This document shows, one piece after another, positions 15,526 to 37,400 of a stretch of 48,475 nucleotides of DNA. Numbering within the stretch: position 1 is the stretch's first letter; each line of letters starts with the position of its first letter. The stretch lies in the NCBI GenBank assembly GCA_903928075.1, contig CAIYPD010000045.1:1-48475 (forward strand), given 5' to 3'. The notes beneath the pieces are model-generated. The model did no database searches. It was given only the letters and a program-made list of their open reading frames with translations, and was not told the DNA's origin. Source of the DNA: Candidatus Firestoneibacteriota bacterium. GTDB taxonomy: Bacteria > Oederibacteriota > D2-FULL-39-29. The translations under genes were made by a program, and so were the position numbers.

Positions 15526-16323
15526 ATGATAATTGTCGGGGAAAGAATTAATGCTACAAGAAAACATGTAGGGGCCGCGGTTTCTGCCAGAGATGAAAAA
15601 TATATAATCAAGGAAGCGGTCGAACAGGAACAATTCGGGGCGCATATGATAGATGTGAACGCCGGCAAGGCTCCGGAAAAAGAAGTTGAAGATATGAAAT
15701 GGCTAATGGACCTGGTACAGAAGCATACAAAATTGCCCATCTGTATTGATTCCGCAAACGCAAAAGCCCTGGAGGCCGGTCTGGCTTTGAACAGAAACGG
15801 CCGCCCGCTGGTAAATTCGGTAACCGATGAAACCGCCCGGATTGAAGCAATTCTTCCGCTGGTGAAAAAATTTGATACCATGGTGGTCGCCCTGTTGATT
15901 GACGAAAAAGGCGTGGCGGATACGGTTGCAAGGCGCATGGAAATAGCTGATTCGCTGGTAAATAAAATATTAAAAACAGGGATTAAAGTCGAAGATATAT
16001 TTGTAGATCCCTGTATTTTCCCTTTGTCCACAAACGGGATTTACGGTCTGGATGCCGTCGAGAGTATCAGTAAAATAAAAGCAAAATTTCCGGGAATAAA
16101 AACAACCTGCGGGCTAAGCAACATTTCCTACGGCCTGCCTTTAAGGTCTCTTGTTAATCAGGCTTTCATCGTAATGCTTATGACTGCGGGACTTGATTCG
16201 GCTCTCATCGATCCTCTTGATAAAAAAATGGTCTCTCTTGTTTACGCTGCGAATGCCCTGCTGAATAAAGATGAATATTGTATGAACTATATAACAGCGG
16301 CCAGGGAAGAAAAACTCACCTGA
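15526..16323 (+). CDS. acsE: Methyltetrahydrofolate:corrinoid methyltransferase (AcsE-like)
   Basis: 265 aa, a single TIM-barrel pterin-binding domain. It would transfer the methyl group of 5-methyltetrahydrofolate to the cobalt of a corrinoid protein, a step of the Wood-Ljungdahl pathway; stand-alone domains like this are also used in other corrinoid methyl transfers. Diagnostic segments are IIVGERINATRK at the start, GAHMIDVNAGKAPE, LPICIDSANAKALEAG, PLVNSVTDE and TTCGLSNISYGLP. AAGGAG lies upstream of the ATG. folC follows after 8 bp, fitting a folate C1 unit. No corrinoid protein or CO dehydrogenase is in view. Confidence 0.85.
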   Translation: MIIVGERINATRKHVGAAVSARDEKYIIKEAVEQEQFGAHMIDVNAGKAPEKEVEDMKWLMDLVQKHTKLPICIDSANAKALEAGLALNRNGRPLVNSVTDETARIEAILPLVKKFDTMVVALLIDEKGVADTVARRMEIADSLVNKILKTGIKVEDIFVDPCIFPLSTNGIYGLDAVESISKIKAKFPGIKTTCGLSNISYGLPLRSLVNQAFIVMLMTAGLDSALIDPLDKKMVSLVYAANALLNKDEYCMNYITAAREEKLT

Positions 16324-16331
16324 AGGTACGC

Positions 16332-17690
16332 ATGACACAGCTTACAGGCAGTTCCTACAGTTCTAAACGCTATGCCGAGAGTTTTTTAAACAGTCTGAGT
16401 GATTACGAAAAGACAACGGGTTATTCGTATTCTGCCGCTTATTTCAATCTAAAACGCATGGAACACCTCCTTTTCCTTCTCGGCCATCCCGAGCACAAAG
16501 TTCCTTCCGTTCACATCACCGGAACAAAAGGAAAAGGATCGACTGCAAATTACATAGCCGCAATTTTAAGCGGGGCGGGCTTTAGTACCGGTCTTTACAC
16601 CTCACCGCATATTTTGAGCTTCAGGGAAAGAATAAAGCTTAACGGAATTATGATTTCCTGGAAAGAGCTTGCCGGACTAACGAAAATAATTAAGCCGGCA
16701 GTTGAACTCCTGAATAAAGAGACAAAATTTGGAATGCCCACTTTTTTTGAAGTTTACACCGCCCTGGGTTTTTTGTATTTTGCAAGGAAAAAAGCCGGGG
16801 TAATGGTTCTTGAAGTGGGGATGGGCGGCCGGCTTGACGCCACAAATGTAGTAAACCCGCTTGTTTCGGTAATTACAAATATCAGTCTGGACCATATCAA
16901 AGAGCTGGGTAATACGCTTGCCAAAATAGCAAAAGAAAAAGCGGGAATTATTAAGCCCGGGGTTCCTGTTGTTTCCGCAGTTCAGAAAAGAGAAGTTCTT
17001 TCGGTACTTAAATCTGCGGCGGCCGCTGCCGGTTCCCGGCTCAAAATAGAGGGCCGAGATTTTAAACATACGGTAATTACTCAAAATAAGGAAGGGAGTT
17101 TGTTTTCTTTCCGGAGTCAGGAACTTAATTTAAATAACCTTAAGCTGAGAATGCGGGGAAAACACCAGGCGGCGAACGCTGCTCTTGCCATAGCTTCTTC
17201 ACAAATAGCCGCCGTAGGTCTGGGAAAGAGGTTGGACCGTCTTAAACGGGCTATTCCCTGCGCGCTGAATAATCTGCAGGTTCCCGGGCGGTTGCAGCTT
17301 ATCTCAAAAAAGCCTTTGATCCTGCTGGATGCCGCGCATAATGCGGCCTCGGCGAAAGTCCTGCTTGCGGGGCTTAAACTCTTCAAATATGGTAAACTTG
17401 TAATGGTTGTCGGTATGTCTGCCAATAAAGATAATAAAGGCTTTCTAAAGGTCTTCGAAAAAGAAGCGGCCCTGGCGGTATTTGTCAGGTCCTCAAATTA
17501 CAGATCGGCTGATCCAAAGATCCTTTTCGGCTCCTCTGCCGCCTTGGCAAAAAAAGCAAAAACTTTTGAAAGTGTTTCTGATGGAATAAAGTACGCGCTT
17601 ATGCAGGCAGGAAAGAATGATCTCATATGCGTGACCGGCTCATTTTATGTGCTCCATGATACATTTAAATACCTTAAGCTAAAGGCCTGA
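16332..17690 (+). CDS. folC: Folylpolyglutamate synthase / dihydrofolate synthase
   Basis: About 452 aa, a Mur-ligase-fold enzyme that adds glutamate to folates (and often to dihydropteroate). The P-loop HITGTKGKGST is at ~61-71, and TSPHILSFRERI and VLEVGMGGRLDATNVV match the family. The C-terminal domain contains LLDAAHNAASAKVL. ATG 16332 is preferred, with GAAGG 5 nt upstream; a longer frame from 16278 would overlap acsE by 46 nt. The gene ends 1 nt before the first unit of the 68-bp tandem array. Confidence 0.92.
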   Translation: MTQLTGSSYSSKRYAESFLNSLSDYEKTTGYSYSAAYFNLKRMEHLLFLLGHPEHKVPSVHITGTKGKGSTANYIAAILSGAGFSTGLYTSPHILSFRERIKLNGIMISWKELAGLTKIIKPAVELLNKETKFGMPTFFEVYTALGFLYFARKKAGVMVLEVGMGGRLDATNVVNPLVSVITNISLDHIKELGNTLAKIAKEKAGIIKPGVPVVSAVQKREVLSVLKSAAAAAGSRLKIEGRDFKHTVITQNKEGSLFSFRSQELNLNNLKLRMRGKHQAANAALAIASSQIAAVGLGKRLDRLKRAIPCALNNLQVPGRLQLISKKPLILLDAAHNAASAKVLLAGLKLFKYGKLVMVVGMSANKDNKGFLKVFEKEAALAVFVRSSNYRSADPKILFGSSAALAKKAKTFESVSDGIKYALMQAGKNDLICVTGSFYVLHDTFKYLKLKA

Positions 17691-17691
17691 A

Positions 17692-17964
17692 ATGAAAATA
17701 ATAATCGATGCTATATTTCGAGCAAAGCGAGAAACAAGACATCGTTACCACAGGTAGGGAATGAAAATAATAATCGATGCTTATTTTGAGCAGAGCGAGA
17801 AACAAGACATCGTTACGACGGGTAGGATATGAATATAATAATCGATGCTTATTTTGAGCAAAGCGAGAAACATGCCATCATTACCACGGATAGGGAATGA
17901 ATATAATAATCGATGCTTATTTTGAGCAGAGCGAGAAACAAGACATCGTTACGACGGGTAGGAT
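17692..17964 (+). repeat. 68-bp tandem repeat of micro-ORFs leading into the NYN gene
   Basis: Four head-to-tail units: 17692-17760 (69 bp), 17761-17828, 17829-17896 and 17897-17964 (68 bp each), with the first ~25 bp of a fifth being the start of the NYN gene. Each unit begins with the ATG and first codons of that gene (MKIIIDA or MNIIIDA). Units 2-4 each encode a 23-aa peptide whose TGA overlaps the next ATG as ATGA, preceded by a TAGG Shine-Dalgarno-like run. Unit 1 has one extra base and stops at 17757. Units 2 and 4 differ at a single base and units 1 and 3 share the other 3' end, so the array may derive from duplication of a two-unit block. Peptides from unit 3 end in AIITTDRE, similar to IITSDKE in the full gene. 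Confidence 0.85.
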
Positions 17965-18489
17965 ATGAATATAATAATCGATGCTTACAATGTTATGCGT
18001 TCCACCCGGTTTTCGGATGACTGTGTTGCTAAAGTTTTAAAGAACCAGCGGGAACAGTTCCTTACCCTTCTTTCGGCCTATGCGGAAAAATCAAACAACA
18101 GGATAGTTGCGGTATTTGACGGAGGCGGGAGCGGCGAGGTGTTCGGAAACTCCGAAGTTTACGGGTTGGTTGAAGTCCGGTATTCGGCAGGCGGGGAGAC
18201 CGCAGATGATGTAATAAAAAAATTGGCTGCGGAGGCGCAAAATCCAAGAGAGGTTCTGATAATTACTTCTGATAAAGAAATCTCTTATTATGCGAGAAAC
18301 TGCGGCGCAACGGTAGTTTCGGCGGTTGATTTTTATTCGAAAATAAGGCGAAACACTGCTCATGCGGAAAAAGAGCCGACTCCCGGGGAATATTTTGAAA
18401 AACATGTTAAAGGTTTTGACGAAGAAGCCGATAAAAAGGAAAATTACAAAAAAAACAAGGGTAAAAAAAGACGGAAAAATAACTGGTAA
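17965..18489 (+). CDS. NYN-domain endoribonuclease-like protein, YacP/Rae1 family
   Basis: 174 aa. The N-terminal MNIIIDAYNVM, central VAVFDGGGSGE, ETADDVIKKLA and IITSDKEISYYAR supply the conserved acidic residues of the NYN (PIN-like) fold, as in YacP (DUF901). Bacillus Rae1/YacP is a ribosome-associated endoribonuclease; activity here is inferred. The C-terminal ~40 residues are lysine-rich (KKENYKKNKGKKRRKNNW), suiting RNA binding. The ATG is the fifth repetition of the upstream array and overlaps the stop of the preceding micro-ORF, so translation is probably coupled to it. Confidence 0.85.
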   Translation: MNIIIDAYNVMRSTRFSDDCVAKVLKNQREQFLTLLSAYAEKSNNRIVAVFDGGGSGEVFGNSEVYGLVEVRYSAGGETADDVIKKLAAEAQNPREVLIITSDKEISYYARNCGATVVSAVDFYSKIRRNTAHAEKEPTPGEYFEKHVKGFDEEADKKENYKKNKGKKRRKNNW

Positions 18490-18537: not shown

Positions 18538-19560
18538 ATGCTAAAAAAAATTGGTCTTCTTCTCTTGTTGGCCTTTTCTTTGAATGTAGTCTTTAACCTT
18601 TTTGAGGTGAGGGCGATATTTGCGGCGACTCCCGTGAAAACGCCAAAAAAAGAGATACCGGCCAAAGACCTTGCGAAACTGGCAAGACTTACCGGCCTTT
18701 CTACAAGTACCCTGCAGAAATATGATCTGGATACACCTGCTACTTTACGGGTATATACTTTGGCTGTTGTTTCGGGGAACAGTTTTGACACTATCTATCA
18801 GAATACCGATTTTGGGATGAATCTGCCGAAATTCTATCAAAGAAACAATGTAACCACGGCAATCCAGGACGAGGCACTGGCGAAATTTAATAAATTAAAT
18901 GCGGAATTCAGCAAAGTTGCTTTTGTAAAAGACACCTACGAGGGCGTCAATAAGACTGCGGTAGCCGAACTTATCTCCTTAAAATTAGGCCTTTCAAAAG
19001 GTGATATTATTGAGTATGGTTTTGGTTCCGGAATCCCTCTCACCGAAATACTGACCTGTGCGGCAGTCTCCCACCTAAACGGTAATTCTTTTTCTCAAGT
19101 CATAGATAAGAGGAAGAGAAACGACAGCATGGAAGGTGTCTATCTTTATTATTCCACATCCGAAAAACAGCGGGCCGATATCCTTGCTCTGGCTAATAGC
19201 TACACTGAAGATCTCCAGATAGCGGCCAAGGCCGGTACAAAAGTCCTTAAGGTGGTACTTACCCCGGAACTGACTAACGAAGGCGTACAACTTGCCCGTT
19301 GTGCCGGAGTTCCTAAAGAGAAGGTTCTTGAGGAATTAAAAAACGGCAATACATCCGCCGATGTAAAAAGAGCTATAGTCGTTTCAAAAAGATTAGCCAC
19401 AGATATTTCTAATATTTTAAAGATTAAAAATGAGGGTGGTTGGAAAAAAGTATATGAGTATTATTTACTGAATAATACAAAATCCCAGACGGAGCTTGCT
19501 GCAATAGAGAAGGAGTTAAACGAAAAAATAACTCCGCCGCCTGCGGTTATTAACAGGTAA
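18538..19560 (+). CDS. Exported protein of unknown function
   Basis: 340 aa starting with a signal peptide (MLKKIGLLLLLAFSLNVVF, probable cleavage after AIFA at ~31). The mature protein is predicted mostly helical, with recurring short segments of the kind LAKLARLTGLSTSTLQKYDL and ARCAGVPKEKVLEELKNG that look like degenerate helical repeats binding peptides or partners. I do not recognise a family and see no catalytic motif. GAGG lies 5 nt before the ATG. A DUF4321 gene follows 33 bp later and is probably co-transcribed. Confidence 0.6.
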   Translation: MLKKIGLLLLLAFSLNVVFNLFEVRAIFAATPVKTPKKEIPAKDLAKLARLTGLSTSTLQKYDLDTPATLRVYTLAVVSGNSFDTIYQNTDFGMNLPKFYQRNNVTTAIQDEALAKFNKLNAEFSKVAFVKDTYEGVNKTAVAELISLKLGLSKGDIIEYGFGSGIPLTEILTCAAVSHLNGNSFSQVIDKRKRNDSMEGVYLYYSTSEKQRADILALANSYTEDLQIAAKAGTKVLKVVLTPELTNEGVQLARCAGVPKEKVLEELKNGNTSADVKRAIVVSKRLATDISNILKIKNEGGWKKVYEYYLLNNTKSQTELAAIEKELNEKITPPPAVINR

Positions 19561-37327: not shown

Positions 37328-37400
37328 AGTCTATAAGGTTTTTAAGGTTTGTAAAGTTTTTAAGGTTTTTAAGGTCTAAGATCGTTGAGGGATATTGTTT
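37328..37400 (+). repeat. Nonamer array at the purL-purQ junction
   Basis: Six units in exact 9-bp phase (GTCTATAAG, GTTTTTAAG, GTTTGTAAA, GTTTTTAAG, GTTTTTAAG, GTCTAAGAT) and then CGTTGAGGG and ATATTG. It begins 4 nt after the purL stop. Confidence 0.75.

Follow-up and report, generated by a model that had tools for sequence, protein, structure and literature searches.

The locus and the question

Why should a gene be preceded by several near-copies of its own beginning? The question is raised by a contig of a Candidatus Firestoneibacteriota bacterium (CAIYPD010000045.1), analysed here as one window of 48,475 nucleotides that is the whole of contig C45 in a 2.72-Mb host genome (148 contigs, 98% complete). 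The answer that we favour, at about even odds (a probability near 0.5), is that a REP-like hairpin, captured together with the start of the gene, multiplied in tandem, became homogenised and has been retained between two cistrons as a translated control region for the RNase encoded downstream.

The locus lies on the forward strand. Upstream is folC, coding for a bifunctional folylpolyglutamate/dihydrofolate synthase with Mur ligase domains (16278-17690; TIGR01499, E 1.1e-109; its TTG start was picked mechanically), and downstream is a 174-aa NYN_YacP (Rae1-family) RNase gene (17965-18489; PF05991, 93 bits against a cut-off of 24.6, E 2.7e-26), hereafter the NYN gene. The sole PDB matches of the NYN protein are the YacP/Rae1 entries 5mq8/5mq9 (E 3.7e-5), and the acidic residues of its IIIDAYN (D), ETAD and TSD motifs align with LLVDGYN, ETAD and TSD of YacP. 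We take these residues to be catalytic. A search of the protein against NCBIfam gave no match, and orthology to Rae1 is thus not established.

Between the two genes stands a tandem array of four units of 69, 68, 68 and 68 bp (17692-17964), every one of which opens with the ATG and the first 7-8 codons of the NYN gene, as the first-pass annotation had described. That annotation carried the array to 17995; its presence is confirmed, but its true end is 17964 and the gene begins at 17965. Tandem Repeats Finder reports a period of 68 at 17689-17987 (4.4 copies, 89% matches) and a second period of 136 (94% matches). Unit 1 (17692-17760) has one extra A and a possible hairpin at about 17706-17744; its 21-aa ORF (17692-17757) departs from the frame of the other units after residue 7. 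Unit 2 (17761-17828; hairpin 17775-17812), unit 3 (17829-17896; hairpin arm disrupted by substitutions) and unit 4 (17897-17964; hairpin 17911-17948) contain 23-aa ORFs at 17761-17832 (MKIIIDAYFEQSEKQDIVTTGRI), 17829-17900 (MNIIIDAYFEQSEKHAIITTDRE) and 17897-17968 (MNIIIDAYFEQSEKQDIVTTGRI), respectively. The first 23 bp of the NYN gene are identical to the starts of units 3 and 4, and units 2 and 4 agree at 67 of 68 positions.

From folC to the NYN gene, each stop codon either overlaps the next start by up to 4 nt or precedes it by at most 3 nt. The folC TGA is 1 nt upstream of the ATG of unit 1, the TAG of unit 1 is 3 nt upstream of the ATG of unit 2, and the TGA of units 2, 3 and 4 overlaps the ATG of unit 3, unit 4 and the NYN gene in turn. 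The ATGA-linked chain noted earlier in units 2-4 is thereby borne out by the ORF coordinates. A second reading frame of the units is likewise open, with 26-aa ORFs.

A chance origin of the array is excluded, since a 33-nt piece of the unit, with up to three mismatches, finds four matches in the window and none in 100 shuffles. Assembly artefact is unlikely, given that two separate assemblies carry diverged arrays (see below). Four is nevertheless a minimum number of units, because near-identical neighbours lie 136 bp apart and a short-read assembly could have collapsed some of them. In an Rfam scan of the window, two tRNAs were the only hits and the array matched no family.

The array in a sister species

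A search with the NYN protein matched 41 of 98 genomes, the host included. Of these genomes, a single further one belongs to the genus (Ca. Firestonebacteria, CAITEH010000023.1) and is referred to here as the sister species; its NYN protein is 72% identical to that of the host, and it shows the same order of folC, units and NYN gene. It holds two 68-bp units, as against four in the host, so that the unit count does vary among relatives, the comparison that the first-pass annotation had put forward. Both sister-species ORFs (MRLVIDAYFERSEKQAIRTKVWR and MNIIIDAYFERSEKQAIRTKVGK) have the full 23 aa and ATGA overlaps. Among 45 genomes of the phylum, a search with the unit peptide matched in these two alone, and a covariance model of the hairpin, with at most 141 candidates scored per genome, gave 69-73 bits in the same pair, six others reaching no more than 27 bits. 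The leaders of NYN genes were surveyed at 29 of 30 loci (L018, whose match is 132 nt from a contig end, was left out, and 11 further matched genomes gave no locus); units were present at the two loci of this genus and absent from the 27 outside it. In the sister genus g2, one genome (G003) has a plain folC-NYN ATGA overlap without units, and two others (G002, G004) have different leaders. At another locus (L035), an unrelated 18-aa ORF overlaps the NYN start.

Conservation within the units is uneven. At four-fold degenerate sites of seven syntenic genes, the host and the sister species are identical at 298 of 704 positions (42%), an eighth gene being without counterpart in the 20 kb examined. 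In all eight between-species comparisons of units, the core (positions 24-51, 28 bp) is identical at 24-26 of 28 positions, whereas the tail (positions 52-68) is identical at 6-9 of 17 (Fisher one-sided p 0.0001-0.02, for comparisons that are not independent). The probability of at least 26 identities in 28 at a level of 42% is 2.6e-8; if coding DNA, with an assumed 75%, is the yardstick instead, the excess shrinks to a modest one (p 0.017 for 26/28 and 0.055 for 25/28). Within the units, the tail has drifted to near the neutral level and the core has not. The peptide tails of the micro-ORFs are not conserved either (AIRTKVGK and AIRTKVWR in the sister species), and both species keep a unit length of 68, although the tail seems to have undergone a compensated indel.

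The units have also changed together with the gene. The start letters ATAATC in the host and ATTATT in the sister species are common to units and gene, the first unit of the sister species being the exception. Unit starts follow the gene of their own species, which shows a homogenisation extending to the gene itself, in other words concerted evolution. The homogenisation that had been proposed from the near-identity of units 2 and 4 is in keeping with this.

These observations bear on the suggestion that the array is expansion debris without a role, a palindrome that was amplified along with its flank and tolerated in a repeat-prone gap. In such a case the ATGA chain would follow automatically from the unit length and from the ATGA at the gene start; as that ATGA is built in, one unit length in three yields the overlap. 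The frame of unit 1 and the hairpin of unit 3 are broken, the second frame is open, and the folC-NYN gap of sister genus g2 likewise holds a repeat, in the G002 leader. Against it stands the core, almost intact although four-fold sites have fallen to 42% and the tail has drifted, and searches of both genomes turned up no donor copies for re-supply outside the arrays. Conservation of the core at saturated divergence argues against pure debris, an option that the first-pass annotation had left standing, and we consider this explanation rather unlikely.

Repeats occur before NYN genes elsewhere in the order. The G002 gap (L080:5060-5155) contains a dispersed element of about 60 bp belonging to genus g2, with matches at 41 places in G002, 36 in G004 and two each in the host and the sister species. 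At three further loci (L014-L016, in G008, G007 and G005), inverted or direct repeats, such as AACGTTA motifs, lie 100-150 nt upstream of the NYN gene. It is as if the folC-NYN gap in this order attracted repeats. Elsewhere in the sister species (G001:C14, L088:1501-1590) 37-bp units that contain GAGCGAAGCGAAATCC and an internal palindrome are repeated in tandem.

A hairpin core with a REP-like centre

A hairpin of 38 nt can form at positions 15-52 of the unit; it would have 14 pairs, include a tandem G-A step and close on a 3-nt loop. This is possible in five of the six units (units 1, 2 and 4 and both of the sister species), unit 3 having lost it; the whole first unit of the sister species prefers another fold. 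In four of the five in-frame units, the 42-nt hairpin piece was beaten by 19, 21, 57 and 24 of 2000 synonymous recodings, as against 719 of 2000 at least as stable for unit 3. Energy z-scores of whole units went no lower than -1.8: unit 3 had 0.09 and the others -1.3 to -1.8. Covariation in the hairpin was not above that of shuffles, 11 of the 14 pairs never varying and one having a two-sided change, so that constraint on sequence and constraint on structure are indistinguishable.

The centre of the hairpin, ATTTCGAGCGAAGCGAGAAA, equals a 20-mer palindrome dispersed in a related genome of Goldiibacteriota type (G009). The pattern TTTCGAGCGAAGCGAGAAAC, with one mismatch allowed, has 12 matches in that genome, often as inverted pairs, one each in G015 and G026, one in the host and two in the sister species, in both cases within the arrays, and none in the other 93 genomes. 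In G009, REP-like inverted pairs TGTCATTTCGAGCGAAGCGAGAAATCT were seen at L045 and L050. As expected of REP elements, the unit hairpin is an imperfect palindrome within the 20-40 bp range. The letters GTAG, which with CGTC serve as terminal tags of REP elements, stand in the tail of four of the six units and do not adjoin the palindrome. The many dispersed copies of a REP element are found in G009, and rarely in G015 and G026; in the host and the sister species the core and the hairpin model match the array only. With up to three mismatches, the core pattern retrieves the four units and three other places in the host genome (one with two mismatches, two with three), and a reversed control retrieves two. 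The Y1 (RAYT-type) transposase domain PF01797 has 4, 3 and 5 matches in the host, the sister species and G009, respectively, and neither of the first two genomes has further unit copies that might adjoin the Y1 genes. A REP-like ancestry of the core is likely, judging from the shared palindrome, and membership of the REP family is not claimed because the host lacks dispersed copies.

Two other possibilities were discarded. The array is not a dispersed repeat of its own genome, as a search with 304 bp found no second locus (best other match, E 0.386). Nor does it look like an attenuator-type switch in which an alternative pairing would hide the next start: at six junctions, 90 to 255 of 500 shuffles were at least as stable, and the pairing is absent at the NYN start of the sister species.

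The hairpin nonetheless allows a reading in which translation is incidental, the array being an intercistronic mRNA processing or stability element that uncouples folC and NYN mRNA levels. This pure RNA-structure role is a close rival of the translated control region, because conservation is seen in the core but not in the peptide tail. The conserved part of the unit is the hairpin, and between-species differences at positions 16-51 fall mostly in the loop (32, 33), in a bulge (47) or in a change from C-G to a U-G wobble (27), with one pair broken, in unit 3 (position 45). Such an element would, however, need neither a constant length of 68, nor an open frame in five of six units, nor gene-like Shine-Dalgarno (SD) sites, and the hairpin covariation is not significant. 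We hold it to be the less probable course, and on a level with debris.

A proposed translated control region

What the preferred control-region reading adds is the linkage of units by their starts and stops. SD-like pairing at the internal starts is -3.5 to -7.6 kcal/mol, compared with medians of -5.5 kcal/mol for 29 long ORFs and -3.1 kcal/mol for 759 ATGs; at the first unit it is -2.6 kcal/mol in the host and -5.5 in the sister species. Each start lies within a gap of roughly 30 nt between hairpins, and the succession of a 1-nt gap, a 3-nt gap and then ATGA overlaps, both units of the sister species having ATGA, is the stop/start geometry of termination-reinitiation. In one study of overlapping gene pairs, 13 of the 14 cases that were tested showed strict coupling (PMC6728339).

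We propose the following course of events. A REP-like palindrome, with centre TTTCGAGCRAAGCGAGAAA, would have landed just inside the NYN_YacP start in an ancestor shared by both known species of the genus, and the hairpin and the first 23 bp of the gene would then have been reiterated in tandem. The resulting 68-bp module would consist of an SD-like site and start codon, the 38-nt hairpin from about +15, a linker and the next start. Because 68 is 3n+2, each module makes a 23-codon ORF whose TGA overlaps the next ATG, and ribosomes leaving folC may be relayed stepwise along the units into the RNase gene. Each reinitiation step would shed ribosomes, lowering or tuning RNase output relative to folC, which is the most likely role of the array as far as its anatomy can tell; the hairpins may govern the entry of free ribosomes and mRNA processing. 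Units, and the gene start with them, probably turn over through unequal exchange or conversion, so that their copy number differs between species, while selection would keep the hairpin core.

Some observations count against a control region. Only two of 45 phylum genomes carry the array at high score, unit 1 has lost its frame and unit 3 its hairpin, and G003 manages without an array. As to a promoter inside the array, TTACCA-18-AATAAT is a weak match (9/12) that is present at units 1-2 and again at units 3-4; the sister species has other letters at these positions.

A more specific possibility, autoregulation by the RNase, appears improbable. The Rae1-family enzyme would enter ribosomes on the micro-ORFs and cut at their Glu-Lys codons (GAG-AAA, residues 13-14), so that abundant RNase would destroy its own leader and each unit would add one target. 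In Bacillus subtilis, Rae1 is said to cut S1025, a micro-ORF, between its codons for Glu and Lys, and reportedly cuts the 26-aa ORF bmrX as well. The array resembles those cases in combining a Rae1-family protein, with PF05991 and YacP/Rae1 as its only PDB match, with short ORFs that have GAG-AAA in frame in all five full-length micro-ORFs of both species. It differs from them in that its ORFs precede the RNase's own gene, belong to another phylum and are candidate targets. The GAGAAA belongs to the REP-like palindrome, which supplies it without any codon selection, and is out of frame in unit 1; moreover, the protein has, as said, no NCBIfam match that would establish it as an orthologue of Rae1, and none of the 27 NYN loci examined outside the genus has such units. 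A precedent is found in RNase Y, which autoregulates by cleaving the mRNA that encodes it, both in the 5' UTR and within the first ~100 nt of the ORF (PMC10303841); like it, the present RNase gene has a candidate control region in its own leader, although here the leader is repeated and modular and its cleavage is a conjecture. If the enzyme did read the leader, a ribosome-associated RNase would have a natural target outside Bacillus, and the array would be an evolvable feedback device of a simple kind. The further step, that the RNase titrates its own leader as a copy-number-tunable self-target whose unit number sets the threshold, is slightly less probable again.

The proposal that the units are NYN gene copies with an internal deletion can be put aside as very improbable, since the resemblance of a peptide end to the gene's LIITSDKE is limited to AIITTDRE of unit 3 and is not above shuffled controls, the 45 bp after the start codons match the gene no better than shuffles do (best 23-nt matches of 14, 13 and 14 in three units, compared with 12-18), nothing like IITSDKE stands in the tails of the sister species, and at the centre of the unit lies the REP-like palindrome.

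Relation to known systems

Clusters of REP elements reiterated in tandem with flanking DNA have been described (PMC3733652). Like those GTAG/CGTC palindromes, the array repeats a short palindrome and adjacent DNA between genes of the same direction, and the sequence at its centre recurs as a dispersed palindrome in a related genome. Unlike those clusters, it is confined to a single locus of its own genome, its flank is a start codon and seven codons, it is conserved in two species and it forms linked micro-ORFs. Hairpins beside or between genes are also shared with MITE-like mRNA elements, ERIC of Yersinia and NEMIS of Neisseria, which have been proposed to act via RNA structure and ribosomes or RNases (PMC2229807); these are dispersed and exceed 100 bp, whereas the array consists of 68-bp tandem units beside one RNase gene. 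The ends of units 2-4, with a 4-nt stop/start overlap and an SD-like site, resemble termination-reinitiation as described in PMC6728339 and PMC10666635, where ATGA couples two real genes and not a chain of near-identical 23-codon ORFs.

Tandem REP clusters with flank, intercistronic hairpin elements and ATGA coupling are thus already known. Within the literature searched, what is new is their combination, a palindrome with a captured start codon that has given rise to conserved, copy-variable, linked micro-ORFs before an RNase gene. A text search of the literature with twelve letters of the palindrome returned only three papers, unrelated ones on plants or human cells. Our reading implies that a start codon can be captured by a palindrome of selfish appearance, which then becomes a modular translatable leader whose unit number could be changed by simple recombination. 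Because the array is conserved at saturated divergence, in a phylum that has been little studied, a functional role can be put to the test.

Two further features of the window may be mentioned. A 340-aa gene with a signal-like N-terminus (18538-19560), 3' of the NYN gene, matched nothing in Pfam or NCBIfam and lacked a counterpart in 20 kb of the sister-species contig. At 37334-37375, a short tandem repeat of TAAGGTTTT (4.7 copies) lies directly 3' of a long ORF.
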